From the IMG/VR virus record IMGVR_UViG_3300023179_000032, positions 1 through 64,000 of that record: a stretch of 64,000 nt of DNA; one strand, 5' to 3'. The translations under genes and the position numbers were made by a program. The notes under the pieces are model-generated. The model saw only the letters and a list, made by a program, of their open reading frames with translations, was not told the origin of the DNA and searched no databases. The stretch comes from a virus. Below, one piece after another: positions 7,486-54,100 of this stretch; positions within the stretch are counted from its first letter, which is position 1; each line of letters starts with the position of its first letter.

Positions 7486-7509
7486 GGCTCCGTTGTTTAG
7501 TAAAAACAT

Positions 7510-7538
7510 ATAGTAGCACAAGTCCTTGAGCTTGTCAA
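7510..7538 (-). promoter_or_regulatory. leftward sigma70-type promoter
   Basis: On the minus strand: TTGACA (7538-7533), a 17-base spacer and TACTAT (7515-7510). Confidence 0.75.
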
Positions 7539-7794
7539 ATAGTTTACTACTATGGAGGGTTATTATTTTATAACATTATAAATGTTATGGTGGTGGCTTA
7601 TAAAAATAAATTATATATTTTATAGCGCTGCTGCTACAGAACCCATGGTGGCAGAAAAACCCCCTGAAAAGCCTAAGTACTTCATATTAAAATTTCTTAG
7701 CGCAGAATTTTTTTAGCTGTAGACCCGGTTCGCCATCCCGGCCGAATCTGTGTTGTTGCACATTCGTAGTCACCAAGCTGACCATGTACATAAA
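7539..7794. other. intergenic stretch with palindrome and flanking repeat
   Basis: About 250 bases with no strong gene. It contains AACATT-ATA-AATGTT (about 7572-7587), a possible 21-codon minus-strand frame (7620-7685, MKYLGFSGGFSATMGSVAAA and one more residue) without a clear ribosome site, and a 30-base sequence at 7703-7732 that recurs at 8701-8730. Confidence 0.35.
7703..7732 (+). repeat. direct repeat, left copy
   Basis: CAG-A-ATTTTTTTA followed by TGTAGACCC and GTTCG. It matches 8701-8730 closely, with a few differences by eye. The two copies flank the metalloprotease gene. Confidence 0.55.
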
Positions 7795-8634
7795 TCAAGC
7801 CCAGTTTAAACTACTAGCCGGAGGCATAGGACCTGGTTGAGCTAGTTCTGGCATTGCTGCCAATACAGCATTAAGTTGTGATATACCGTGTAGAGCATGT
7901 TGTATATCTTCTTTAGCTTCTGGTGACGGTCCATGACGCTGTAAACTTTGTTGAAAATGCATGTCCATTTCTGGTTCTATTTCGCTACGCCTTTGGTCTG
8001 AGTAGTTCTTTACTGCTTTAGTTATACCAGCTTGTCTTGTATTCCAACTAGGATAATCATCCTTAGGATCCTCAGGCTCTTGTAATTCAGCACGACTAAG
8101 AAAAGCTCTAGCTTCATTAGCGTTATAGCCGCATTTGTAGGCCAATACAGCACCGTAGGCATCTGCATCCAATTCCATTTTTCGGTTCAGCTCTCTCTTT
8201 TGTTTATCCGTAATACCTGGTCTAGATCTATTCTTATAACTTGTAACACCACCTGAGCGTTCCTGTAGAACGTGTCCAATTTCGTGACCCAGTACATAAG
8301 CTAGACAGCTATCGGTCATATTCCAAAATGTGCCTATATCAAATTCTATACCTTTTTTTGCTAGATCGGTAAGATTAGTTTGAGCATAGGCCAATACATC
8401 CACATCCATTGGAGCACTAACAGGCACGCCCTGTATCATTTTTTGATCTTCCTGAGCCATCGAGTTAATTAACACCGCATATATGTTCTTGAGTCGCTGA
8501 GTCAGTTTTTGTCCTCGTGCGACCCACATTGCTCTGTCTTGAGCTGACATCGGCCGCATGGGCGACTGTAAAACCGGTGCGGTTTTGAAACTTGTGGGTT
8601 GTCCTATTTCTGATAATATTTCATGAATTCGCAT
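7795..8634 (-). CDS. predicted zinc metallopeptidase with capsid-targeting-like N-terminus
   Basis: A 279-residue protein. HEIGH at about residues 117-121 is an HExxH zinc site. The helix around MELDADAYGA (about 153-162) supplies the glutamate expected for a third ligand, as in M48-like peptidases. The true start is the ATG at 8634; the frame one codon upstream begins with TTG. The N-terminus MRIHEILSE resembles T4 internal-protein targeting peptides that end in a gp21 cleavage site (Leu/Ile-x-Glu). It may therefore be packaged in the head and injected. A TAAATA element lies four bases before the ATG. The gene is flanked by a 30-base direct repeat. Confidence 0.75.
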   Translation of the reverse strand: MRIHEILSEIGQPTSFKTAPVLQSPMRPMSAQDRAMWVARGQKLTQRLKNIYAVLINSMAQEDQKMIQGVPVSAPMDVDVLAYAQTNLTDLAKKGIEFDIGTFWNMTDSCLAYVLGHEIGHVLQERSGGVTSYKNRSRPGITDKQKRELNRKMELDADAYGAVLAYKCGYNANEARAFLSRAELQEPEDPKDDYPSWNTRQAGITKAVKNYSDQRRSEIEPEMDMHFQQSLQRHGPSPEAKEDIQHALHGISQLNAVLAAMPELAQPGPMPPASSLNWA

Positions 8635-8638
8635 CAAT

Positions 8639-8646
8639 TATTTATT
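8639..8646 (-). promoter_or_regulatory. candidate late promoter, leaderless type
   Basis: AATAAATA on the minus strand ends four bases before the ATG at 8634, and no Shine-Dalgarno sequence lies between. If used like T4 TATAAATA, transcription would begin at about the start codon. Confidence 0.45.
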
Positions 8647-8700
8647 AACTTTTATAAACTTTATGTTATTTTATACTCATGACTAACGTTATTGGCATAT

Positions 8701-8730
8701 CAGGATTTTTTTATTGTAGACCCCAGTTCG
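8701..8730 (+). repeat. direct repeat, right copy
   Basis: CAGGATTTTTTTA followed by TGTAGACCC and GTTCG, the partner of 7703-7732 on the other side of the metalloprotease gene. Confidence 0.55.
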
Positions 8731-8737
8731 GATTCTG

Positions 8738-8744
8738 CTAAATA
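8738..8744 (+). promoter_or_regulatory. candidate late promoter CTAAATA
   Basis: CTAAATA lies 21 bases before the ATG at 8766, with GAAAGGA between. This is the ordinary late arrangement with a leader. Confidence 0.5.
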
Positions 8745-8765
8745 ATTCTTGAAAGGATCTGTATT

Positions 8766-8906
8766 ATGATAGACTATAGTGAGATTGATTTAGTTGTATG
8801 GATTGAGGTCATAGGATTTATCATATTTCTAGCATTTCTAGCCAGTTCTAGTCTGGGCAGTGGGCAAGAGGTTAAAGATTACGATTTAGATCGTTGGAAT
8901 AAGTAA
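8766..8906 (+). CDS. 46-residue single-pass membrane protein
   Basis: Starts MIDYSEIDLVVWIEVIGFII. Residues about 9-30 form one hydrophobic helix, followed by a short acidic tail ending DLDRWNK. A GAAAGGA site and a late-type CTAAATA element precede it, so it is probably expressed late. A lysis or membrane role is possible but not shown. Confidence 0.6.
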   Translation: MIDYSEIDLVVWIEVIGFIIFLAFLASSSLGSGQEVKDYDLDRWNK

Positions 8907-8939
8907 ACTTTGTGTAATCAAAACTCCATAATTCTAGTG

Positions 8940-8945
8940 TAAATA
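8940..8945 (+). promoter_or_regulatory. candidate late promoter, leaderless type
   Basis: GTAAATA lies seven bases before the ATG at 8953 with no Shine-Dalgarno sequence between. Confidence 0.4.
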
Positions 8946-8952
8946 TAGTATT

Positions 8953-9606
8953 ATGGCCAAGCCCCGAGCAGCAGTTTTGCTGAACCACCCCCAGTGTAGC
9001 CTACACAGTGCTCACGGTCTAGTAAGGGTATTGTCATCTTTATATGGACTAGCCAACGTAGACTGTATCAGTCCAGACCAGTTAACCTTACAGAGATTAC
9101 GCAAGTATCAGTTATTCTGTGTGCCCGGTGGCCTAGGGGATGCGGACAGTTGGCATAGATTATTAGAGCCCTCCAAGCCCTTAGTCCAGCAGTACTCTTT
9201 AGAGGGTGGGTATTATCTTGGCATCTGTATGGGAGCCTACTGGGCCGGTCCCTTATATTTTGATCTAGTCAAGGATATCAATCCAGTGCAGTATATTCGG
9301 CGTCCCGGAGCCAGTGTACGTCGTAGTTACAGCACAGTAGTTGATGTTACTTGGATGGGTCATAATGAAACCATGTTTTTTTATGATGGGTGTAGCTTAT
9401 TAGGAGCCAAGCCTTCTAGTAGCATAGCCAGTTATACTAATGGTGATTGTGCGGCCCTAATTGAGGGTAGGGTTGGTCTAATTGGGCCTCATCCAGAGAG
9501 TGACAGTTTTTGGTATATGGATCGCTATATGCAGAAGCATTGGCATCAGTATACTCATCATGCTTTGTTAGCAGATTTCATAAGATTATTGGTTAATAAG
9601 TTGTAA
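8953..9606 (+). CDS. class I glutamine amidotransferase-like protein (BPL_N type)
   Basis: A 217-residue protein resembling the stand-alone N-terminal domain of eukaryotic-type biotin protein ligases. The GATase fold is marked by CVPGGLGDAD (about 56-65), the nucleophile elbow YYLGICMGAYWAG with Cys92 (about 87-99) and IGPHPESD with His180/Glu182 (177-184). The Cys-His-Glu set is therefore complete. The substrate of this family is not known. No partner synthetase domain is present. It lies between two genes for predicted injected proteins, with a TAAATA element seven bases upstream. Confidence 0.75.
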   Translation: MAKPRAAVLLNHPQCSLHSAHGLVRVLSSLYGLANVDCISPDQLTLQRLRKYQLFCVPGGLGDADSWHRLLEPSKPLVQQYSLEGGYYLGICMGAYWAGPLYFDLVKDINPVQYIRRPGASVRRSYSTVVDVTWMGHNETMFFYDGCSLLGAKPSSSIASYTNGDCAALIEGRVGLIGPHPESDSFWYMDRYMQKHWHQYTHHALLADFIRLLVNKL

Positions 9607-9670
9607 TCTGTTTGTAATGGTTTTAAAATTTGGGCTACCGTTTCTACCGCTTCGCGGGAGCCTTCGGCCT

Positions 9671-9678
9671 ACTAAATA
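9671..9678 (+). promoter_or_regulatory. candidate late promoter, leaderless type
   Basis: ACTAAATA ends four bases before the ATG at 9683 without an intervening ribosome site. A small hairpin, CCGC-TTC-GCGG, lies just upstream. Confidence 0.45.
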
Positions 9679-9682
9679 CACA

Positions 9683-10915
9683 ATGAGAGTCTTTGATATA
9701 GTCAGTGAAGAGTATGTTCATCGTGTAAACATAGACATAAAGAACCTAGCCCGAAATATGGCTGCTGCCCGTTTCGCATCTGAACACGGGCAAGGTCTTA
9801 ACTATGCAGACAGTCTAGTCTACTTGGGACTACTAGGGGATCCCAGTTTAGAAATAGTTCTCAAGCCCAAGGCCATTGGTGCATACTATCAAAAAAGGCA
9901 TAGACAAGAGCGGGGTGATGATCAGATTCATCAGGCCTTTAAGACTAGCAGCCCCACAGCGACCACATTGGGAATATATGGTTGGGGAGTGCATCCTGAG
10001 CGTGATAGGGCACGTAACAATCTAAGCCAACAGCAGTATGATCTATACAGAGACAAAGATGTGGAGTATGACCTATTTGTCAGTGTGGAAGATGGGGAGA
10101 ATCTAGAAGATCTAGTCACAGCGCAGCCCAATACCATAGCCAACCTAGCACATGAACTGCGCCATAGAGCCTTTCAACTCACTAACTATATACCAGCACT
10201 AAAAGGTCAACTACCACATTATAGGATTACGGATAGCACTGGTCATGTCTCAGATCCCAATAGTATATACTATATGCAGAAGGTAAGTCAAAGGGCCGGA
10301 GCTAGACATAATATGTATGTTGAACATGCCATGATCTATAGCATTGAACGACACTATGATCGGAGCTTTATGGGTAACTATGACAGTCTTGAACAGATTC
10401 GAGCCTATCAAGAGCTATACAAGGACTCCGAAAAATTTGTAAGAGCCTGGTTGGATCGCAATCAGAACTCGCACAGAGCATGGCAGGATCTTGTTAGTTA
10501 TATAGATGCCAAAACTCCAGGCACGGGCACAGCACGAATAGATAAGGATAAAAATGGTGAGCTCGTTATTATTAATAGAGAACCCGCTACAAATGCCAAT
10601 AAACCTGCACCTACCAAAGCAGAACCAGCTACACCAACAAGGCCTCCTAGTAGACCAGAAGGTCCACCTACAAACACAGATGCCAGACCCAGCCCCACTA
10701 GTACTCAAAATAGTCCTTTAGCGCAGACCAAGCCGCAAATGCCCAGTATACAAGATGGGCCTGTAGGTTGGGGATTATCCCTATTAGGGGTCAACAAGCA
10801 GTTGCGTAACAATCAGCAATTTGTAGATCGTACACTAGGGCCAGGGTATAGAGCAGGCAGTAAAGAAAGTAACATAGCCTTGTTAAAAAAGCTAAGACCA
10901 CAATACGGCAAATAA
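9683..10915 (+). CDS. HExxH protein with capsid-targeting-like N-terminus
   Basis: A 410-residue protein. LAHELRHRAFQ at about 155-165 contains HExxH, and a downstream helix YVEHAMIYSIERHYD (212-226) offers candidate third ligands, so a zinc metallopeptidase is likely. Residues about 305-365 form a Pro/Thr/Ala-rich linker before a short C-terminal domain. I moved the start from 9617 to the ATG at 9683, giving MRVFDIVSE, which parallels MRIHEILSE of the other HExxH protein and T4 targeting peptides ending in a gp21-type site. It converges tail-to-tail with the HemF gene with no gap. Confidence 0.7.
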   Translation: MRVFDIVSEEYVHRVNIDIKNLARNMAAARFASEHGQGLNYADSLVYLGLLGDPSLEIVLKPKAIGAYYQKRHRQERGDDQIHQAFKTSSPTATTLGIYGWGVHPERDRARNNLSQQQYDLYRDKDVEYDLFVSVEDGENLEDLVTAQPNTIANLAHELRHRAFQLTNYIPALKGQLPHYRITDSTGHVSDPNSIYYMQKVSQRAGARHNMYVEHAMIYSIERHYDRSFMGNYDSLEQIRAYQELYKDSEKFVRAWLDRNQNSHRAWQDLVSYIDAKTPGTGTARIDKDKNGELVIINREPATNANKPAPTKAEPATPTRPPSRPEGPPTNTDARPSPTSTQNSPLAQTKPQMPSIQDGPVGWGLSLLGVNKQLRNNQQFVDRTLGPGYRAGSKESNIALLKKLRPQYGK

Positions 10916-11797
10916 TTAAACGTAGTGTTTAGGTATTAGGTTTTTAAGTAGTTCATCTTCCCTACTACCATGGGGTGGATGATAGTCATACTGCCAACGA
11001 GCCAAGGGAGGCATACTCATCAATATACTTTCGGTACGACCATTGCTCTGTAGACCAAATAGAGTGCCTCTGTCGTAGACCAAATTAAACTCTACGTATC
11101 TACCTCTTCGATATAGTTGCCAATCACGTTGTTCTTCAGTCATTAATATATCTAATCTCTGTCCTACAATGGGAGCATAAGCTGGTATAAAGGCCTCGCC
11201 CACTGCTCTAGTTATGTCAAAGGCCTGTTCCATACTAGGTTGGCTAAGATCGTCGAAGAATACACCGCCGATGCCTCTTGATTCGTTTCTATGTTTAAGG
11301 TCGAAGTAGTTGTCACACCATTGTTTGTACTTGGGATATAGGGCTGTGTCAATTGGGTCTAATGCGTCTTTACAGGTGCGATGCCAATGTACAGCGTCTG
11401 CTTTATAGTAGTAATAGGGAGTAAGATCCATACCCCCGCCAAACCATCCTTGTCCTGATTCTGTGATAAACATACGCACGTTCAAATGTACAGTGGGTAT
11501 ATGAGCATTGCGTGGGTGTAAGACCACGCTAACTCCGGCTGCTTCCCAGCTCTGTCCTGCTAGTTCGGGCCTATGTTCGCTGGCACTGGGTGGTAGTTTT
11601 TTACCAAATACGTGACTATAGTTACAGCCCCCACGTTCAAACACATTGCCGTTTTCCAGTAGTATACTAGTACCACCTCCACCTTCTGGTCTGGTCCAGC
11701 TGTCCTTAGTAAATGTTTTACCATCTATATCTTCTAAGTCAGCGATAATATTATCTTGTAGTTCTTTAAAAAATTCTAGAGCTTGATCTTTTAACAT
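10916..11797 (-). CDS. hemF: oxygen-dependent coproporphyrinogen III oxidase
   Basis: A full-length 293-residue member of the family (E. coli HemF has 299). The enzyme oxidatively decarboxylates coproporphyrinogen III to protoporphyrinogen IX in haem and chlorophyll synthesis. Family landmarks are [16 protein letters not shown] (93-108), [12 protein letters not shown] (120-131), [20 protein letters not shown] (232-251) and the ending with [12 protein letters not shown] (273-284). The conserved histidines in these segments are present, so activity is expected. ATTAAATA at 11821-11828 lies 24 bases upstream. The small gene 11834-12265 runs in the same direction upstream and may be co-transcribed. 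Host-derived auxiliary metabolic gene. Confidence 0.95.
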
Positions 11798-12325: not shown

Positions 12326-12553
12326 ATGAAGAACTTAATTCAAAATCAATATAATGTAGAATCTAGTTTAGATAATAGACATAGTCCCCTAAGTATGGGC
12401 AGTGACAATGTGGCCAAGAACCCACAGGATTATGATCTTATGCGTATGTTGCAGCGTCAAATCAATACTCTGCAACAGGAGATTCGTCGCCTGCACAATA
12501 GACATAAAGAATTGCACAACGAGGTGACTAGATTACGTAGCCAAATCAAATAA
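12326..12553 (+). CDS. coiled-coil protein, 75 aa
   Basis: Starts MKNLIQNQYNVESSLDNRHS. Residues about 38-75 are a Leu/Gln/Arg/His-rich helix with heptad-like spacing, ending in RLRSQIK, so it probably oligomerises as a coiled coil. AAGGGG precedes the ATG. It is eight bases upstream of the cyclase gene and in the same direction. No family recognised; a regulatory or structural partner is possible. Confidence 0.6.
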   Translation: MKNLIQNQYNVESSLDNRHSPLSMGSDNVAKNPQDYDLMRMLQRQINTLQQEIRRLHNRHKELHNEVTRLRSQIK

Positions 12554-12561: not shown

Positions 12562-13794
12562 ATGGAAACCAAACTAGCCACCATTATCTGTAGTGATGTT
12601 ATTGGCTATAGCGCACTGATGCAGCAAGATGAAGCAGGGACGTTGGCCAAGTTAGATGCCTGTCGTGCTGTTATTGATCCTTTAATTGACCGTAGTAGGG
12701 GTCGATTGTTCAACACAGGAGGAGACAGTGTACTCATTGAGTTTGCCAGTGCAGTAGATGCTGTACGTTTCGGCATAGAAATGCAAGCAAGTATAAGCAG
12801 TATGAATAATGGCATGCGTTGGCGTGTGGGTATGCACATGGGCGAAGTATGGATCTATGGTACTAACCTCATGGGCGATGCTGTGAATCTTGCTGCTCGT
12901 TGTGAAAGTCTAGCCGACTATGGTGGTGTTACCATGACCGATGCTGTCTATCGTCTAGTAGCTCCTAAGATAAAAAATCATAAATTTATCAGTAGAGGCA
13001 TACAAGAGTTTAAGAATGTAGCACCTATGGAAATATGGAGTGTGGATATTGAAGGTGCAGAGCCCAATCCACATCTCAATAAAACAGTAAAAAAGACTCA
13101 AGCTCAAACTATATCTAGGAGTCACAGTGAACTAGTAGCCGCTGTGGTCAATGATCAAGCAGCCCGTAATCGCACATTACATGATGCCCTGTCATTAAAG
13201 CATGATGCCAAGTATGGCCCAGCTACACGTATCATGATGTGGCGTGTGAGCAAGCAGGATAGTCAAGCATTAGATGAATTAATCAATATGGTACAAAAAA
13301 ACCTAGTGCCAACAGAGTTAAAACCCTATGTACAGGCTGTATTCAGAGAGTTTTGTCAAAAGGTCAATAGTGATCTAGCCCTACGTATAGTAGACCTAGT
13401 TGAAGGTGAAAGTCGTAGCCTAGCCTTGCAGTTTCTACGACAAGCGGCCAAGGTCAATGAACAGGCCAGTTATAGATTAGCCATAATGGTGTTTACTGAT
13501 CCCAACAGTAGCGATAGTGAAATAGAAAGTGTAATAGGTGATCTCAAGGAAGGTGCAATGAAGCGTAAGATACCAGCTATGCTAAGTCTTGGAAAATATT
13601 ATACACAGATAGGTGATAAGAAAAATGCCTTCCGTTGGTTATATGCTGCTCGTGCTGAGCATAATGCTGAGGCACAGAAATTATTAGAAGAGCTCAATAA
13701 GACCATCACTCGAAGTGATTTTAATAATTTCAAAACTGATGCGGATGCCCTAGTGGATGAAATTAAATTTATTGATGATAACAGAATGAAATAA
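12562..13794 (+). CDS. class III nucleotide cyclase with helical-repeat C-terminus
   Basis: A 410-residue protein. Residues 1-165 form a class III cyclase domain. Metal aspartates are Asp12 (ICSDVIGYS) and Asp55 (NTGGDSVLIEF). The transition-state Asn109 and Arg113 are in GDAVNLAAR (105-113), so the catalytic set looks complete. The order and wording resemble cyclases common in alphaproteobacteria. Residues about 180-400 are helical, with a Sel1/TPR-like unit near 335-380 (MLSLGKYYTQIGDKKNAFRW). The base used (ATP, GTP, CTP or UTP) cannot be read by eye. Its stop overlaps the ATG of a membrane protein gene (TAATG), implying a coupled pair. Confidence 0.88.
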   Translation: METKLATIICSDVIGYSALMQQDEAGTLAKLDACRAVIDPLIDRSRGRLFNTGGDSVLIEFASAVDAVRFGIEMQASISSMNNGMRWRVGMHMGEVWIYGTNLMGDAVNLAARCESLADYGGVTMTDAVYRLVAPKIKNHKFISRGIQEFKNVAPMEIWSVDIEGAEPNPHLNKTVKKTQAQTISRSHSELVAAVVNDQAARNRTLHDALSLKHDAKYGPATRIMMWRVSKQDSQALDELINMVQKNLVPTELKPYVQAVFREFCQKVNSDLALRIVDLVEGESRSLALQFLRQAAKVNEQASYRLAIMVFTDPNSSDSEIESVIGDLKEGAMKRKIPAMLSLGKYYTQIGDKKNAFRWLYAARAEHNAEAQKLLEELNKTITRSDFNNFKTDADALVDEIKFIDDNRMK

Positions 13795-41045: not shown

Positions 41046-42166
41046 ATTTCAGCCTGCAATAAAGTTAGAGTTACTGTAATCGTAGCAGCTGATCCACTTA
41101 GATTGGTAACTGCTACAGGAATGTTAGTAGTTGGTGTTGCTTCATCATTAAAGCCAAATACTGCCGGAGCAAGTATTACTGTTTGTGATCCAGTTGTAAT
41201 AACTTCTGCAATTACTCCTGCATCGTAACTTGGATCAATTCCTTGTGCTCTACTAGCATCTGCGGTTCTTGTTGCATTACTTACATATAGTCTTACCCAA
41301 GCAGCATGGCTCGTTGTAATTTTGTATAGCATATAACCTTTAAATCCAACAATATCTAAGTCAGCAGAGCTGTTATTTGCTATACTTGATGATGTGGAAT
41401 TTGACGTAGTCCTTGATCCTAGTAATATACTGCCCTGTATACCTTGAGCACCCTGTATACCTTGAATACCTTGAGCCGATGTTTCACCAGATAATCCTTG
41501 AAATCCTAGTATACCCTGTATACCCTGTATACCTTGACTACCTTCAATTCCTTGAACTCCGTCATTGCCTGTTATACCCTGTACACCTTGTATACCTTGA
41601 CTACCTTTAATTCCTTGAACTCCGTCATTGCCTGTTATACCCTGTACACCTTGTATACCTTGACTACCTGGAGGACCTGTATTTCCTGAATTACCAGTTC
41701 GCCCTTCTAATCCTTGTATTCCTTGTATACCTTGATTTCCTATAATACCACTAGTGCCTTGAAACCCTTGTGGTCCTTCTGATCCCTGAATACCTTGTAT
41801 ACCTTGAGATGCTGTTGCACCTTTTACACCCTGAATACCTTGGACACCTTGATTTCCATCAACACCTATGATACCATCTTGTCCTCTGATACCTTGTATA
41901 CCTTGACGACCTTGAGTACCTTGGCTTCCATTACTGCCTACAAATCCATCCTGACCTCTGATACCCTGTGTACCTTGATTACCTTTTATACCTTGTACAC
42001 CCTGTAAACCTTGCATTAAAGAAAGATTTTGAATACTGTATTCTAAAGACTGAATAGTATCATAAGTTTCAGTAAAATTTTGATTAATTTTTATAGCCGC
42101 TGCTCTGATAGTATCACCAGTTCCATCATTAGCTCTTGTTCCTACACTAATCGTTTGCTTTGCCAT
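41042..42166 (-). CDS. collagen-like tail-fibre protein, 374 aa
   Basis: The N-terminal 45 residues include MAKQTISVGTRANDGTGDTI and KINQNFTETYDT, an opening shared with fibre proteins of marine T4-like phages. Residues about 55-250 are Gly-x-Gln/Ile repeats (GIQGIQG, NQGTQG), predicted to form a collagen triple helix. The C-terminal 120 residues are a globular beta domain. It probably forms a trimeric fibre. It is three bases downstream of the giant gene. Confidence 0.85.
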   Translation of the reverse strand: MAKQTISVGTRANDGTGDTIRAAAIKINQNFTETYDTIQSLEYSIQNLSLMQGLQGVQGIKGNQGTQGIRGQDGFVGSNGSQGTQGRQGIQGIRGQDGIIGVDGNQGVQGIQGVKGATASQGIQGIQGSEGPQGFQGTSGIIGNQGIQGIQGLEGRTGNSGNTGPPGSQGIQGVQGITGNDGVQGIKGSQGIQGVQGITGNDGVQGIEGSQGIQGIQGILGFQGLSGETSAQGIQGIQGAQGIQGSILLGSRTTSNSTSSSIANNSSADLDIVGFKGYMLYKITTSHAAWVRLYVSNATRTADASRAQGIDPSYDAGVIAEVITTGSQTVILAPAVFGFNDEATPTTNIPVAVTNLSGSAATITVTLTLLQAEI

Positions 42167-42168
42167 TT

Positions 42169-45100
42169 TTATTCCTCATCTGTCCTTGCAATATCAGAAT
42201 CAAAAGTATAGTTTGTACTATCTAAAGTAGCCTTTGTTCCTTCATAAGTATCTACATCAATCTGTAAAAATTCTGCAATCTTATTATTAGATTCACTCAA
42301 ACTTTTACCAATATCACCCCAAACTGTTCCTTGTTTTCTTACTATGGTTATTCGTTTATTTAATGGATCTTCACGTAATTTTATAAACCCAAGGTCTTTG
42401 TTTACACTAGCTCCATGATTTACCCCATCTGTTATTAGATCAGCTGCATAAGATATGTCACCTTCTGGGCTATGCGGACTAATAGTTTTATCGTGTATAC
42501 TATACGGAATCTTTTTCAATCTATTAGTTCCAACAAATACCTCTAAATCTAGTACACGTTTATTATAGTTTGTTGTACTATCTGGATCATCTACTATAGG
42601 TTCCCAAGGTACAACCAATGTATTTGAAGAATCATCTAAAAATGCTAGATCAGTACGTGCCCAATTAAGATTTTTTACACTTGGATAATGTGTTATATCA
42701 CTTTCTACTAGTTCCCACCAAGTTGGTTCAAGATTAGGTGTTTTGGAAACATTTAGATTCTGTTTACTTCTATAAAGCTTTTCGTTATATATGACCTGTT
42801 GATTTAAAATATAAGTTTTACTTGATTCCCAAAGTTTATAATTAATTCCAGTAATCTGCTGCCAACTTTGTCCGTTGTAATTTACTACCTCATCCTGCAA
42901 GTACCTATAATTCGGATCCCAAATACCTAACCATTTGTAAGTTTTTGTTTCATCCTTATATGGTACTGTTTCTCTAAAACCAATATCATATACTTCTGTT
43001 CCTAACTTATGAACCTTAGGAACTCCTGTTCCCATAGTGCCTCTGCGTAGTTCTGTTATTTTATTACCAATACGACTCATATATTCAATACGTTCACCAT
43101 TAATGTACACGACCCCAGGTACGTTTGATATTCTATTAGCTTCAGATATTACTGATGAATCTTCAATATAGATGTCTTTATCTGTAGCATTTAAATTGCG
43201 TAATAATCTAGTAGTTCTATTTTTATTCAATCTAATATATGAATAATTGTTTAACATATCCTTAAAAATCATAAAACGCACAGGTATTCTATTAACATTA
43301 CTACTAAAAGTGATGATACCAAATCTATCATCTTCATTAGGAGTTTCAGTAAATCTAATACTGCGTCTATCTTCTCTTAAGATATAATCTGTTAAGGGTA
43401 CTAATAGTTTTTGATTTTTTGTTACCCAAACATAATTTGAGTTTTTAATTTGTGTATCAAAATACAATACTCCGCCACTAGCCTCAATTAAAACAGGATA
43501 ATATATGCTATCTATTAGATTGTTTACATTTTTTTCTATAGTTAAGTAAAATCTACCAATATCCAATAGGTCGTGATTAGTCATTGCTAAAATTTCTACC
43601 TGTGTGCCTAAAGGATAAACTGTCCTTAGTCTTATTCTACTATAACCTAAATCATTATCTATACGATATTCAGCAAACTTAGTAATAGAAACTGTAACTT
43701 CTGCATTTTCCTTATAATAATTAGGCTTAATTGTAATAGTCTTTTCTAACAAATTTAAAGAATAAGCAATAGCATCTGGAACTTTTATGCTATTAATAAA
43801 AACTTCATAATCAGTAGTACTGTATACATCAAGATCACCTTTGTTTAAAGGAATAGGATAAGTTACTTGTCTATTCTTTAGTATAAACCTAAATTGATCC
43901 ACACTATCTAAAATAGTATCACCAACTCTAACTAGTGTGTTTGGACCTAAAGGAGTTTTGTATCCAACAATATTATCTAAACGATAGAATTGATTAACAC
44001 CATCAGTTGTAATAATTTCTCTAGTTAATATACTTTGATCTGAACTACTGCCTAAAAATACACTGTATAGTACAACATCACCTACATTTAATACTTCGGG
44101 GAATGTTACACCAATTTTTCCAACTTTAATGTATGATTCTACATCATCTAAAATTTTAACCCAATATTTAGAATTTACTACAAAATCTCTATCTTCTTGG
44201 CTATAGACTAAGGGTAAATTGCTAAAATTATTATCTATTAAGGATTGATATACTTTAGTTTGATAAACAACCTCATCATTTAATTTATAACTAACATTGG
44301 ATTGCCAAGCACCTCTAGTTTTAAAAGGAATATTTGATATTGGTTTACCAGCTACTACAGTATAAACACTGATATTGTCCTGATAATCTGCATCCAATAC
44401 TATAGTAGTGTTTTCTTCAGTTGCTACAATACTATCAATAGTAATTAAATTAGTACCATTAAAACCAAATCCTAAAATAGATAAGTTTTGACCAGCAGGT
44501 GGAGTATTTAAAAGTATAACATTTAAATTATTATAATCAAAATAATAATCATCACCTATTAATATGTCATCGTTTAATTTTACAATGATAGCTTTTTCAT
44601 TATTTGGATATGACGTTAATTTAAACTCTTTAGTAACGCCATCTGTAATATACCTAATACAATTAATTTCACTAGTAACAGTTATATTTCTTTCAAATAC
44701 TTTAATAGCCAATGTATCAGCAACATGCCCTGGAATCATTTCTTCAGGTGCTGGACTGGTCATTGGGGTGATAAATCCATCTCCATCAATTATGATATCA
44801 TCAGCACGTATACCAGAAGCTGTTCTATATGTTGGGTTGGCTGCTAGATTACCACCTTCTATAATGGTATCATAAATTTCATCGTCTGTTGGTTCTCCTG
44901 AATCCCATCCTTTACTGGCCCAACTAAATTCTCCATCCCACAGGTTTAACTTACTAAATCCAATACTGCTGATACTTACTCCACCATAATCAATACCAGT
45001 CATTAATTGATCAAAATCAATTCCTAGCATACCAGCAGTTGGCTTATAAAAATGCTTGATTCTTTCCAATGCGTTTAAATTATTGAAATCTTTTTGATAC

Positions 45101-48100
45101 TCAATGCGTATAGGCAAGTTTTCACCTGGAGGATAGTCAAACGTCACACTACCATAATAAACAGTATAACCCTTTTTTTGTGATGTTAACTTTTGAACTT
45201 CATATTCTGTAACAAAAATTTCTACATTATCTACAAAAACTTTAAATTTAGTTCTATCTATATCTGGGCTGTATCTTAGTTCGAAAGTTATAGTACTGCC
45301 ATCACCCGTAAATGTATCAATCACATTGACATTTAGGACATCATCAATACTTTCTTTTTCATATCTATCAAATTTTACTGCTAATCTACTATTTCTAATT
45401 AGACTATTGCCTAAAATAGCATATACACTTGCTTCTCTGCCAGTTTCAGTAAATTGACCTCTAATTCTAATTTGCGGAGCTATATAATAACCTTCTCCTG
45501 GATCCAGTATATCTACCTGTACAATTTTGCCTCTATTGATGTAAAATTTAATTTTTAAAGGTCTAGTACATTCACCTGTTATTTCTACTGTGGGGTAGCT
45601 AGTATATCCTTCACCTTGATCAATAATCTGTACTTTGGCCACATTAAAGGTTGTATTATTAAGCCAAGAATTCCAAGGTTGCAACTTAAACAAATTTTCA
45701 TTTTCAATAAACACAGAATTTTTTTCAAATTGTGTAAACAATGTGCGTATTTTACCTGTTTTATTAATATAAGATGGTAGATCAAAATCAGTTATTAGAC
45801 TATTACTACTTTCTATAGTGTCATATACACTTACGAATTCTCTTATTTTAGTTCTAAAGGGCTTTACTTCTTTAATATAACTTTCGTAATCTTCTAAATT
45901 ATCGTTATTAAAATTAACTTTTTGACGTAAAGGACCTACAAAATGTAAGACCTTAATAAAACTAGTCTTAAAAATCCAATCTACAAAGGGTTGTTCTTTT
46001 AAAATATATCTAATAGAAGCAAAGAATAAATCTATATAAATCTTTCTTCTATTATCTACTAAAATTTTATTTTTTAAACTGTTTAATATAATTCTTAATT
46101 CTTGTGAACCAACCCTATCATATAAATCACTATCATATAGTAATCCATCATAGCCTTGATCATTTATTCTAAAATTATAAAAATCAGTGCTAAGTTGTAT
46201 AGCTCCGTTTTTTCGACCTACTATTCGATATATTTGGGTATAATCTACAGCTATATCATTAGATATTTTAAGAGCTAGCACCCAATCATCAGACGAACCA
46301 ATATTGTTAACTTTAACAATATCACCAATATTTGATTGTACTTTTAATAGTTCATCATAATCATTAACAAGATGATTAATCTTTGTGAATTGATTATAGC
46401 CATCTTCATACCAATCAATAAAGTACCAATATTTTGTTACATCAAAATCTTTAGTTTTTACCTTAACCCAATTATTATTGATAAAATGGTAAATGGCCCA
46501 TTCATTTAGTGTATTTTCATCACTGCGAACAACTACACTTAAAGGTCTTACAGTAATAGTTGTGCTAGCACTATAGTTAAGACCCTTATTTAGAACTTCC
46601 ACATTTGTGATAGATCCTACAGAATTTATAGTTAATTTTAATTCGGCATTAGTACCTGTGCCAGATATAGTAACTGATGGAGGTACTTGATAACCATAAC
46701 CTTTCTCTATAATCTTAACCTGTGTTATTTTTCCTTGGAATACAACTGGTTCTAATTTAGCCTGAACAAATCTTTGTGATACTACAAATCTTAATTCACC
46801 ATAAACATCTTTTATATAATCGTAAAGACCAAAGCTTATGTGTGGTATTTCATCTTTTATATAAAAATCACTTAGATCAATATTATCAACCTGTATAGAT
46901 TTAAAATCATTATTAAACTTTTCAACTAGTAGTTTTACTGCTTCTAGTCTATTAACAAACATTGTTTGATTGGGGTTAAATTCAATACCGTAACGCAGTT
47001 TAGGTGGTATGTTTAATCTAGGTAACATAACACCGCTATCATCAAATCCAATTAAACTATCAAACCATTTCTTTTCAATATAGGGTGGTATGGATGTTTT
47101 TTCATTGTTTGATATAATCTTGTATTCATTGTGTACCTGTAGATTTTTAGGATCTTGTATCCAATATTGTAAACTTAATAGTATATTGTCCTTATCTAAC
47201 AAAGGAGTTACATTGGCCAAACTAAATGCATTTTTATCTAAAAATTTAATATATTTGATATTAGCATTTTTAGGATTTTCAATAATTGTTGTACAATCTA
47301 TAGATGCTATTTTTCTGCCATGCTTGTTAGGTATTATTTTTTTATTTTTTACCCAAAAATAGTAGGTTAAATTTACCTTATTACTTAGATTATCATAACT
47401 TTTTTTAATGCTATAAGCTTTATCACCATATAAGCTAAGACCACTTATTCCTAAACTTATACCATCAACAGTGTCAGCAAGTTCGTCCCATTGACTAGGT
47501 AAAAATCTAGATTCTACCCATTCGTAAACATCTATACTTGCAGTTGGGAATAAGGTGTTCCAAACACTGTTATTGTATACAACATCACCTATTGTCGCAT
47601 CTAAAAACTTAGCTCTACGTAGATCCCACCATAACATACCAACCTGTGCATCTGTCCAAGCCAAACCATCATCAACACTGATAGGACTGATGAACCCACT
47701 GTTTTTATAACTATAATTTGCAGGATCATAGTAAGTTTTAAATTTAATTTCTTGTTCGGCTATGCCTGCAATTTTACCCATTTTTGGATTAATAATATCC
47801 AAATATGTAATTAAATTATTATTTTTTCTATTATATAAGAATATTTTTTTGAACCAGTCTAAACTAATAGGGTCCTTTTCATGTAATTCTTCATTCCAGC
47901 TATAGGTGTTTCTTTTCTTTTCATGAATATATACAACACCATCTCTACTGTTTTGACTATTAGTTAGATTATGATTACCTATTATAATAGTATTATCGCC
48001 TATAGTTATGCTAGGTATTTCAGTAGTAACTGTAGGACTTATTGATAACGATTCTGAAAATATAAATTTTGTATTATATCTATCAAAAATATCAACTCTT

Positions 48101-51100
48101 CCGACATCAGTTAAAAAATTAGAATCTGTTATATTTGTATAATTTACATCAATAGATGGTGCGTCACCTTTTCTACTTAGGATTACTAATGTTTTAGGCG
48201 TATCAGAATTATCATCATTAACAAACTTAACTTGGTAACCAAATTCCTCATTACTTTCTGCATTTCTATTATTAATAGTTTGAAATAATGCAAAATTACC
48301 ACTAGTCTTTTTATAAATTCTAACAGCACCTTGATTAGTAAAATTATTAGTATCCTCTAAATTAGCACCTACAGCAAGATATTGATTATTACTGCTTATT
48401 GATACACTATGTCCAAATCTATCCACAGTGTTTTCCACTGTTTGTATTAAACTATATGAATTATTATATACATAAACTTTTTTAGTAACTGCATCTGAAA
48501 TTACTATATTATTATAATCTTTACTAACGTCAAAATCTGAACAAAAACCTATGCTTGGTGTAACTAATTCTATTTTAATTCTTAATGATGCATCTACAGG
48601 ATTAAAAATATACAACCCATCACCTAAACAATTAACAAATAAATTATATTCTACTAAATTTGGGTTAGGATTTTCTTTTACAATAAATTTTAATTTAGTA
48701 CCAAAATTTAAGTTTACGTTTCCAGGTTTAATAATTGTAGTTTTATAAGTGTAATCTTGATTAGATTTTAAATTTGTTAGATAGTGTACACCTGGTAAAC
48801 TTTTCTTTAATGTTAAAACTTCCTGTAGCTCAACATCCTTAGTTAAAATAAAACTGTTAGAATCAATGACTTTCACATAGTATTCTTGATCATCCTCTGT
48901 TCCTACAATAGTATTAGTTAAACTTGTTAATTTAACTAACGTACCGTCAGCTAAACCATGTTGATTTATAACAATTCTATTATTTAAATAATCTAACCTA
49001 TTACCTGTAGTCAAAGTAAAATCACTATTGAATACTAAAGTTTGTTGTGGTATTGAGTAAACAAGAATAACTCTTTCTAAAGTTGTAGCATTACGTTTTC
49101 TTATGCCACTAATTGCTATAAATCGAAAATCTTCACTTACTGCTGTAACATCACCATAATCAAATACGTTATTTTCAGAAAATAAAAGTTGTTTTTTCAC
49201 CCATAAAGGTGTAAGATAAGGTTTTGAATATACTAATACTTGTCGATTACTACTTGTAGTTTCTGTCCAAAACAAATTATCTGTAGGAACATTAGTTGTG
49301 TTAGATATACAAACATAAAACTTGCCATCTGTAGGATAAAAAACTACATCATTAACTGTATAAGATGTGCCTAAATTAAAATTATATTTGAAAACTTCTT
49401 TTTTTCGTAATGTAACTAATAACAAAGTAGTCAAACTATTAGTACTAACTCTATAACCAAATTCTTGATTGGGTTCAATATTATAATTGCTTAAATTTGT
49501 TTTTTTGTATACTTTTTTATTTTTCCAAATGCTTTCATAACTTTCATTACTAATCCAAGCTAGTTCACCATAAGGCCAATCATTAATTTCTAAATTAATA
49601 TACTTAGGTACTAACAAATTATCTATATTACTAAATCTATGTTCTGTAAAATTATATGTTATTACGGTAGGTATATTTAAATTATTAAGTTGAAATCCTA
49701 CAGGTATAGCAATTTTAAAAGTTTTAGCTACTGCATCTACTGCTGTAACTATATAAAATCCAAATAATTTATCGTAATCTGATGTGATAGCTAGTATGTC
49801 GTTGACCTGTATATTTGGAAAAATATTATAAGTAAATTGCACTTGATTACTAACAACAACAACATTTGTAATTGTAGAATAAAGTTTATTATATCTAAAA
49901 ATATTCCAATCATCATTAAATTGATTTATTTTCTTTTGAAAACCACACCATACATAATCACCTGAAACTAGATCAGATGGGGAAATCAAACTATCTTCCT
50001 GCATGGTTATTAGATCACTTAGATCATCTAATATTACTTTGGCCATTTCAACTTTACAAAATCCTGGTGTTTTTAATAAAGGATAGGGAGTATCATCAAC
50101 AGGCCATAAATTTTTGTCGTAATTTTTTGGTTTTAGATAGATATCGTTAGCTGTGTATCTTATAACAAAATCATTTTTACTAGGATCGATCTCGTCTACT
50201 ATTTCAAATGGCTGTGGATCTAATTTAAAAAATGTTTCATCTAGTGCAAATTCCACTTCATCATATGATTCAGTTGATCCAAATCTACCTACACGTATGG
50301 CCCATTCTTCTAAAAATTCAAAGCTATCTTTACCATCAGAACTTAGTACATCAAATAGTTTGTTAAGGCTGTTAACTGTGCCTTTTTCTGTGATCATTCC
50401 CTGATAAAATTTAAACTCACTGACATCATTTTTAATAATATTGCTTAGATATTGGCGTTTTTGATATCCTATTAGATGTTGAGCTATTCGCTGTTGATCA
50501 ATGTCAAAGTTATCACTATCTAAATCATAAAAATCTAAAAATTGTAAAGACTTATAATCCCAATTAGGTATTAATTTAGATTCAGGAGCAGTGGCCAGTT
50601 TATTCCATTGTGTATTATCAAAATTTTCACTACCAATTATTTTTGTTAAAGCACTGTAATAAAATTCTTTATACTTAACTATATCACCTATATTATAATC
50701 AATCCAAGAAGTCCATTCTTGGATATGTGCTTCATCATATACAAAGCCTGGGCTATCAAAACTACCATTCCAGTCTATAGTTTTATACCCGTATACCTTA
50801 AGTCTTTCCTGTCTATATCCTGTTGATTTATTAAAAATTACATCGTTAAACTGTGTAACATTATCTATAATAAGTACGTGTTCTTTTTGTACTAGATATA
50901 GTCCCAATCCGTAGATACCTAGCTCAGTATTTTTAGGTTTGACTATAAATTTTCCGTTTTCTCTATAAAAATTTAAATCTTCTGGCTTATATTTTCCACC
51001 ATCTGCTCTAAAAATTTCATATTCATAACTATTCAAAATGTCATTTACTACATTATATTCCAAGTTAACAGAAATTTCTAGTGCGGAAGGACTTAAACTT

Positions 51101-54100
51101 ATAGCACTGGCTCCATCACTATTAATGTTATCAATCTGTAAAAAATATTGTTCTTCGAAATTATTTTGACTTATATGAGGTACAATAGTTCTATAAAATT
51201 GTCTATTATATAAAACTATGTCATTGTACAAATAATTTGTTAATTGAAGCCAATCTCTATAGCTATCTGATCCAGCACTCCAGTTTTGAGTAGTCCAAAA
51301 CAAAAATTCTTTAACACTCAAACTCCAATCACCTATAGAATTAATTTCTGAAATATAATTAGTAAAGATAAAACCTTGACTTTTTAAATATTCTTGATAT
51401 CCTAAAAGAAAATCTACAACTTCTTGTTTACTATAAATGATAGATCCATAAGTTAATATAGTAGGAGTAGGATCAAATTCACTTCTTATATTTGCATCTG
51501 CTCCACCAACAATAGGTAGAGCTGCTAGTTTAGCCAATAAATTATAGCTAGGATTACTACTGCTAGTATGAGATGTTTTTACTCTATAGTATCCATCCCC
51601 TATTCTAACAATATTACCCGCAACATATCTTTGTTGTGCTTCCCAAACAATAAAGCTTTCACTAATTCCACCTACATTGATGTCATAGCCTTTTTTGGTC
51701 CAAGGAAAATAATAAAAGTATGGTTGACTTAGACTATAACCTTTAATTTCATAACCTAATCCTAATTTTGTAACAACTTTTGTTACAATAACACCACTAT
51801 AAAATAGCTTTTTAGTTGGACTACTAGTGTTTAATATAACTTTATAATTTTCTTTTGGCACAAATACACTAGTTTTTGAATTAACATTCCTACTATCTAA
51901 TATTAAATTAAATTTTTCTTCACTAGTATAACCACTTATTCTGTGACTGAGCTTATTGGTTAATTGTGAAAGTATAGTCTTATAATCTGAAAGTGCTTTC
52001 TTTTCATTAGATAATAGATAATCAACAACATAATTAACTAATCCGCTAGTTTGTATTCTTTCGCTATCAGATGCTACACTTGTTATTTTTAAATCTTTAA
52101 GTTGTAGTCTTAAACCTGTTTCTGTGTAAACTAATTGATCAGAAGGATCTCTTTCTATTCTTGATCTGTCAAAATACACACTAAACACCTTATTAGGTGT
52201 CATTAATATCATATTTTTTAGAAAGCAAAAAGAATAATAACTACTTCTTCTCCAAGCGTTTTCAACTGGTCCAATGTCACCAAATATATAATTTTTATCT
52301 ACTCTATTATTAAACAATCCAGTTGCAATATTAGTTGCTATAGGATCTAATAATGCTCCTTGATCAGTAGTAGGAATATTATCTAAAATTGGTTTGACAA
52401 ATTTACTGTTTACTCTTAAAGGTTTATTAGGCTCTCTAATTACGCCATCTCTAAGATCATTCCAAAGCACATAATTATCACTAGTATATGGCGCAAGTCC
52501 GTACACTTCGTCCCACCATTTTGGTTTAATACTAAATCCTAAACTTTCCCAAGGAGCAATATGTATACGATCAGTATCAAAATACCATTTATAAATTCCA
52601 CGCCAATAACCATCTAGAGTAGTTTTATCAAAACTTTGACACTCAGAATAATTATAAGTAAATGGATTTGAACTCTTATAATTAACAGTTCTACTAAAAT
52701 CTTGATCTATTAGTAAAGTCCATTTAAAGAAATTAGAACTTATTATTTGATTAAATTCTTGTTTAGAATAATCTGTATTTCTATTAGAACCTTCAATATA
52801 ATTGTATATGTCAATAACATTTGGATCATATTCTATTTTAATATTATTAAAAATACGTTTTTCTAATTCTAAAATAAGATCATCTCTAAAATCATCAAAT
52901 GCTGCAATAATACTCCCATCGTGTCCTTGTATAACATTTTGAGGATACTGTAATGTTGTATCTAAATATTTTTTTGGTTCAAATTTTGGATACAAACCTA
53001 AACTTGTTGGGGTAGGTGGTATAAAACAACCATCTGTACTATCATACTCAAACATATCAACAATGTCATCTTCCTTTAATTTAACGAAGACTTTTACAAA
53101 TCCTTGATCAGTAAATTCGTAATCTCTTTTGTAAAGTAACTGTTGATTATTAACATATATGTAGGTAGCACCTGTACTTAACTTGTTTAAATTAAATAGC
53201 CTACTAAGAGGAAATTGATCTTGTACAAATTCTTTTATTTTAAATTGCGTATGTTTTTGTCCATTATATGCCAGCATATCACTAAAATAATAAGGCATTG
53301 ATTTTGTTTTATTAAGATTAATATTACGTAGTAGATCGTCAACAGAAACTTTAATATTTTCTATATCTTCTAAATATTCACTGTTGAAAATGAATGATCT
53401 TTTAAATTTATTATAATCATTCATTGCCATATCTATTGCTTTTAATATATTGGCATTGTTATCAGTAAGATGATACAATGATAAATTCATACTACCACTG
53501 TGCTGTATAAACTTAGTTCCTCTTTCTGTTAAGTTACCTATATCACGTAGGTTACCAGGTCCTGGATATACTCCCTTAAAATTGTCAAGACTGTCTATTA
53601 TTGAATCTACATGATCAATTACTTCGCCTAGTGTAAATGACTCTACATTTTCATTTAGTGGGTTATTTTGAAAACTTAATGGAAATTCATAGTATCCATT
53701 AGCATTTTTAGGTTGACTAGTATAACATTTTAAAGTAACAACATCGTTTTCAGTTATATCTTCTGCTAATTTTACAAGTTTATAAACTACACCGTCTCTT
53801 ATTTGAAATTGATTAAAATCTAATCTTTTTCCGTTAATATAAACTTTTAATCTTAAGTCATCTAAATTATCCTTATCATCAAACATATCTAAAGGAAAAT
53901 CATTAACAATTAATTTATTTGTAGTGTTAACTAGTTCATATTCATTTTTATATACTCGAATAACTGGCTGAGTATTTTCTAATACGTTCTTTTCCCAACC
54001 ATTAACTAATACTTTTTCATTTGATGTGTTTAATATTTGTAAAAACTTATTAGATGTAATGTCTGTTATAGTTGTAGTAACTATTTTATATTTGAAAATA

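Follow-up and report, generated by a model that had tools for sequence, protein, structure and literature searches.

Two neighboring genes of an uncultured phage encode predicted zinc metallopeptidases, here called P1 and P2, that are probably internal head proteins of the T4 type, packaged in the head and injected with the DNA to act against a host protein. The window analyzed is a stretch of 64,000 bases (bases 1–64,000 of the 121,982-base viral record IMGVR_UViG_3300023179_000032, hereafter G000), and its nearest relative is the 183-kb record IMGVR_UViG_3300022752_000018 (G001). Both proteins open with a nine-residue peptide (the tag) resembling the capsid targeting sequence of T4, and we infer their packaging, cutting after the ninth residue (E9), injection, catalysis, and target. 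An earlier note that had read them as head-packaged, injected proteases is supported as far as the sequence goes.

The phage is T4-like by its sequence. The same record contains a gp21-type prohead protease gene (Peptidase_S77, record positions 81586–82035, E = 1.9e-26), downstream of which lie a scaffold-like gene, recognized by reading, and then gp23, recognized by homology; a gp55-like late sigma factor is also encoded (E = 1.7e-6). The cultured phages nearest in gp23 are Sinorhizobium phage Phosso (69%), a Vibrio phage (68%), and the jumbo phage groups of CBB and PA5oct (approximately 65%). The gp23 of the relatives has a conserved YLxE site followed by S or T, whose L-x-E form is that of the tag, and cutting between the E and the S or T would be expected from T4.

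P1 and its surroundings comprise the following features:

7795–8634, minus strand: P1, a predicted zinc metallopeptidase of 279 amino acids, in an open frame from the ATG at 8634, with a head-targeting-like N-terminus
8608–8634, minus strand: MRIHEILSE, P1 residues 1–9, the predicted targeting peptide with a predicted cut after E9 (start-site enrichment; gp23 site match)
8272–8286, minus strand: HEIGH, P1 residues 117–121, predicted zinc ligands and catalytic Glu, after the gluzincin pattern
8173–8175, minus strand: E154 of P1, the likely third ligand, after the same pattern
8639–8644, minus strand: TAAATA, late-promoter-like, 4 nt before the P1 ATG (motif search; spacing peak in 13 contigs)
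about 7500–8655, no strand: the P1 block, 97–100% identical to G001, non-coding DNA included (sliding identity; limits approximate)
7709–7726, plus strand: left copy of a weak 18-nt repeat that may be due to chance (right copy at 8706–8723)

The HExxH protein opening MRIHEILSE that the earlier note had described was recovered with the same gene, start, and motif. P1 scores over the Pfam cut-offs for both Zn_peptidase and M48 and has a weak NCBIfam match of the YpfJ type; HEIGH, the distal E154, and a Pfam profile over its cut-off together mark it as a predicted gluzincin. No other domain was found in its 279 residues by Pfam and NCBIfam profile searches. Across all collections searched, a single homologue was found, 98% identical, and a PDB sequence search gave no useful match. 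The AlphaFold model of P1, built from two sequences, was not usable at a pLDDT of 41, and Foldseek with that model returned nothing meaningful. The DNA flanking the P1 block is mostly 70–95% identical between G000 and G001 by sliding identity, and by sequence comparison the block is recently exchanged or shared. P1 had also been described as flanked by a repeat: two 18-nt copies 997 nt apart do exist, but at 83% likeness they are weak, and the repeat was rejected as a mobility signal.

The features of P2 are as follows:

9683–10915, plus strand: P2, a predicted metallopeptidase of 410 amino acids, in an open frame with HELRH and a Pro-rich region near the C-terminus, without a family match
9683–9709, plus strand: MRVFDIVSE, P2 residues 1–9, the predicted targeting peptide (start-site enrichment)
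10151–10165, plus strand: HELRH, P2 residues 157–161, putative zinc ligands
10322–10324, plus strand: E214 of P2, a possible third ligand by its presumed role
9673–9678, plus strand: TAAATA, late-promoter-like, 4 nt before the P2 ATG (motif search)
9669–10914, plus strand: the P2 cassette, promoter element and gene, cleanly absent from G001 (G000/G001 comparison)

The longest P2 frame opens at 9617, 22 codons upstream of the ATG at 9683. In the alignment, G001 shares the sequence as far as 9668 and again from 10915, with everything between missing; the stretch 9617–9668 is therefore read as leader rather than gene. A start at 9617 was rejected, most of that stretch being present in G001 without P2, and the ATG at 9683 is the better start because most of the 22-codon extension falls in DNA that G001 has despite lacking P2 and because TAAATA stands 4 nt before it, which upholds the corrected start, and the opening MRVFDIVSE, proposed earlier for this HExxH protein. 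The cassette may have been gained by G000 or lost by G001, either direction being consistent with the comparison. HELRH and E214 of P2 are seen in the sequence itself; Pfam, NCBIfam, and other profile searches gave no family match, and those of Pfam and NCBIfam no other domain in its 410 residues. None of the collections searched yielded a homologue of P2, and AlphaFold on the single sequence (residues 1–295) gave a pLDDT of 32.

Each of the two genes has its own TAAATA element, as had been claimed, exactly 4 nt before its ATG. In 13 related contigs, 68 ORF starts have TAAATA 4 or 5 nt before the ATG, with a second peak at 18 nt, compared with one to six for scrambled hexamers not overlapping TAAATA at that spacing; the T4 genome has no peak of TAAATA 4–5 nt before the ATG. 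The geometry of T4 late promoters would put the mRNA start at or next to the A of the ATG for such spacing, and by this analogy genes with TAAATA 4–5 nt before the ATG would be leaderless late genes. More close-spaced sites occur at 12551 (plus), 14573 (minus), and 30814 (minus), at record positions 70509 and 78969, and in 12 related contigs. The gene between P1 and P2 (8953–9606, plus strand), which has TAAATA 7 nt before its ATG, matches the biotin-protein-ligase N-terminal (glutamine-amidotransferase-like) family.

The pattern scanned for the tag, M[RK]xx[EDQKS][FILV][FILV]xE, was drawn up after the examples were known, and the control at internal Met positions uses it too. In the 13 related contigs (1,173 ORFs), there are 17 matches to this 9-mer no more than 35 residues from the first start codon and none at the 5,888 Met positions deeper in those ORFs (p = 7e-12); with the four seeding examples removed, the counts are 13 and 0 (p = 3e-9). 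In 300 rounds of shuffled N-termini, the mean was 0.28 occurrences and the maximum was 2. A coincidental likeness between the N-termini of P1 and P2, which a permissive pattern defined after the examples were seen might favor, is rejected by these start-versus-internal counts and retains next to no probability. When one extra residue was allowed, a scan of T4 matched only ipII and ipIII (MKTYQEFIAE), both real internal proteins; gp24 (MAKINELLRES) and Alt (MELITELFDE) of T4 show this layout with different residues, which the pattern does not catch. The earlier reading of the two N-termini as T4-like targeting sequences is supported by the start-only enrichment and by what the T4 scan picks. 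Strict matches number one in CBB, three in PA5oct, and none in B23, even though T4-form tags occur in B23; the letters of the tag thus differ by lineage. A third tagged protein of G000 opens MKVNELLSE (record 70519–71442, outside the window); it has no HExxH, and its gene has TAAATA at the same 4-nt spacing before the ATG.

Presence of the motif on other proteins of related genomes had been set beforehand as a test, and it was found on unrelated proteins, including two further HExxH families. The tagged proteins are mostly mutually unrelated, the exceptions being the P1 orthologue, a GH19 pair, and one marginal match, and the types in relatives include LysM + GH19 wall hydrolases, small basic proteins, and membrane-like proteins approximately 9–14 kb from gp23. 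The LysM + GH19 proteins (L104 at 13179 in G002 and L115 at 8754 in G003, over the Pfam cut-off) are, by sequence, wall hydrolases with a head-targeting-like N-terminus. HExxH is found in three of 16 distinct tagged proteins versus four of 740 length-matched others (p = 2.6e-4). The third tagged HExxH family, from G003, opens MRAKEFVTE and has HELNH, and its kin at 69% identity open MRSYEILKE, keeping the pattern with changed letters. The fourth came from a function-blind promoter scan of the viral collection (TATAAATANNNNATGARAGT) with 101 matches, of which three have the tag by the pattern above, and all three are small HExxH proteins of one family. These small zincins comprise 26 loci with 20 distinct sequences; HExxH is present in all, L7 and E9 are invariant, residue 10 is always G or S, and many have TAAATA 4 or 5 nt before the ATG. 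A cultured homologue is gp332 of Synechococcus phage B23, which opens MNYKQFLRES, while other B23 proteins open MKTYSQFITE and MKTYREFISE, near the T4 tag; the homologue in S-SRM01 has no tag. Two unlike tagged zincins together with at least two tagged families in relatives suggest that such phages may deliver proteases into the host along with their DNA. That the tag is real while HExxH arose by chance in P2 (or, with lower likelihood, in P1), leaving one or both as non-enzymatic internal proteins, is very improbable: P2 has neither a family match nor a usable model, but HExxH is enriched among tagged proteins, a Glu follows it at a plausible distance, and P1 exceeds two Pfam cut-offs.

Mature tagged proteins are basic, with a median pI of 9.5 versus 5.7 for other ORFs (p = 4e-7), and pI played no part in choosing them. 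Likewise, ipII and ipIII of T4 have pI values of 9.6 and 9.7; P2 has 9.1, and P1, at 6.3, is the exception. Tagged proteins have also been reported in the virions of CBB and PA5oct. By mass spectrometry, CBB_210 was detected in the CBB virion (13 unique peptides, 60.5% coverage; PMC5259590); this protein opens MNKLQKILTE, and two relatives have a tagged protein homologous to it (E = 7e-10 and 3e-7). The tagged gp333 of PA5oct (MKINDIITE) is marked ESI-MS/MS, and another tagged PA5oct protein is without a virion-detection mark. Detection of CBB_210 and gp333 speaks for the tag rather than for P1 and P2 directly. A second annotated head maturation protease of PA5oct (NC_071039, 179881–181020, L204; ESI-MS/MS) adjoins a hypothetical protein opening MKIKEIILE.

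The nine residues might instead form an amphipathic helix with another role, in proteins that act in the cell late in infection, for example in lysis or host shut-off, and never enter the head. Lysozyme e of T4, which is not a head protein, opens superficially alike (MNIFEMLRIDE), and the tag is carried by GH19 + LysM proteins; against this stand the invariant L7 and E9 in the 20 small zincins, the match to the gp23 site, the basic mature proteins, and the tagged relatives found in virions, which make such a role quite improbable. The residues after the predicted cut, I in P1 and E in P2, count against reading the two proteins as internal head proteins with peptidase cargo, being neither the S/T of gp23 nor the G/S of the small zincins; so do the pI of P1, the missing family match of P2, the unmarked PA5oct protein, and the untagged S-SRM01 homologue.

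Homologues of P1 and P2 are absent from the other relatives searched, including CBB and PA5oct, and P2 is absent from G001 as well. The third tagged protein of G000 is not the same protein as the tagged one that G001 encodes near gp46. The exchanged P1 block, the presence or absence of P2, and the differing tagged proteins of G000 and G001 fit a modular, swapped cargo. The same targeting evidence (start enrichment, gp23 site, and Peptidase_S77) would also serve peptidases that are packed by the tag and act inside the prohead or on virion proteins, in maturation or trimming of core fragments, rather than as effectors in the next host, and for the zincins of polyvalent proteins a role in protein processing, either ahead of delivery or following it, has been proposed (PMC5512222). 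This is unlikely given the diversity of the cargo behind the tag and the distribution of the two genes; absence from relatives, for P2 including the nearest, argues that neither is a core maturation enzyme.

As injected internal proteins, P1 and P2 would be expressed late in infection from gp55-dependent TAAATA promoters. The peptide M[RK]xx[ED][ILFV][ILV]xE would dock each protein into the prohead core, where the prohead protease gp21 would cut after E9. The mature peptidase would stay with the packaged DNA, enter the next host alongside it, and cleave a host protein, most likely a defense or takeover target. The tag would thus act as a portable label on different, exchangeable cargo genes.

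The internal proteins IPI, IPII, IPIII, and Alt of T4 have a capsid targeting sequence (reviewed in PMC3012670; for IPIII, PMC9391042). P1 and P2 resemble them in the short N-terminal peptide ending in x-x-E with diverse bodies behind one tag, the presence of a prohead protease, and a gene content that varies between relatives, and the tagged mature proteins are basic as in IPII and IPIII (P1 excepted). They differ in their cargo, here a zinc peptidase predicted from sequence, and in the letters, M[RK]VxEILxE-like here versus MKTYxEFIxE in T4. Of the T4 internal proteins, IPI is known to inhibit restriction, whereas most of the others have no known function.

Zincin-like metallopeptidase domains have been proposed to be virion-carried and injected in the case of polyvalent proteins, the N4 virion RNA polymerase, and DdrB of phage P1 (PMC5512222). 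These zincins are domains of large multidomain proteins, fused to several others, whereas the gene products P1 and P2 are small and neither is such a fusion; the T4-type tag is a feature of the latter, not of polyvalent zincins. An early-acting effector role against a host protein is likely by analogy with T4 internal proteins and polyvalent-protein zincins. In the giant phage SPN3US, the prohead protease cuts N-terminal propeptides after Glu on ejected proteins (PMC5694885); its propeptides are mostly far longer with the motif AxE, and the likeness lies in an N-terminal cut after Glu by the prohead protease, as predicted for P1 and P2. CBB and PA5oct differ from the present phage by their much larger genomes.

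In T4-like phages at large, the tag may be an exchangeable label by which zinc metallopeptidases from four or more unrelated families, traveling between genomes as promoter-tag-enzyme cassettes, are injected against host defense or takeover proteins, a tentative extension about which we are slightly more doubtful than convinced. T4-type internal proteins were already known, and what looks new is zinc peptidases as recurring cargo; a literature search of incomplete coverage turned up no stand-alone injected metallopeptidases with such a tag. If peptidases commonly serve as cargo, proteolysis may let phages disarm first-response defenses upon DNA entry. The tag also provides a simple and testable rule for recognizing proteins of uncultured phages that are head-packaged and possibly injected.

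Other features were observed in the same record. Adjoining P2, a coproporphyrinogen III oxidase gene, hemF (10916–11797, minus strand; Pfam E = 1.6e-123), is a haem gene in a phage; a host assignment from it was rejected, the lone 57% match, to a gammaproteobacterial MAG, being too distant. A 410-aa protein at 12562–13794 (plus strand) resembles, by reading, a class III nucleotide cyclase. The structural region has giant open frames at 42169–56262 (minus strand, 4,697 aa) and record 93412–113790 (plus strand, 6,792 aa), and collagen-like repeats are found at 41444–41974 and record 119461–121674.
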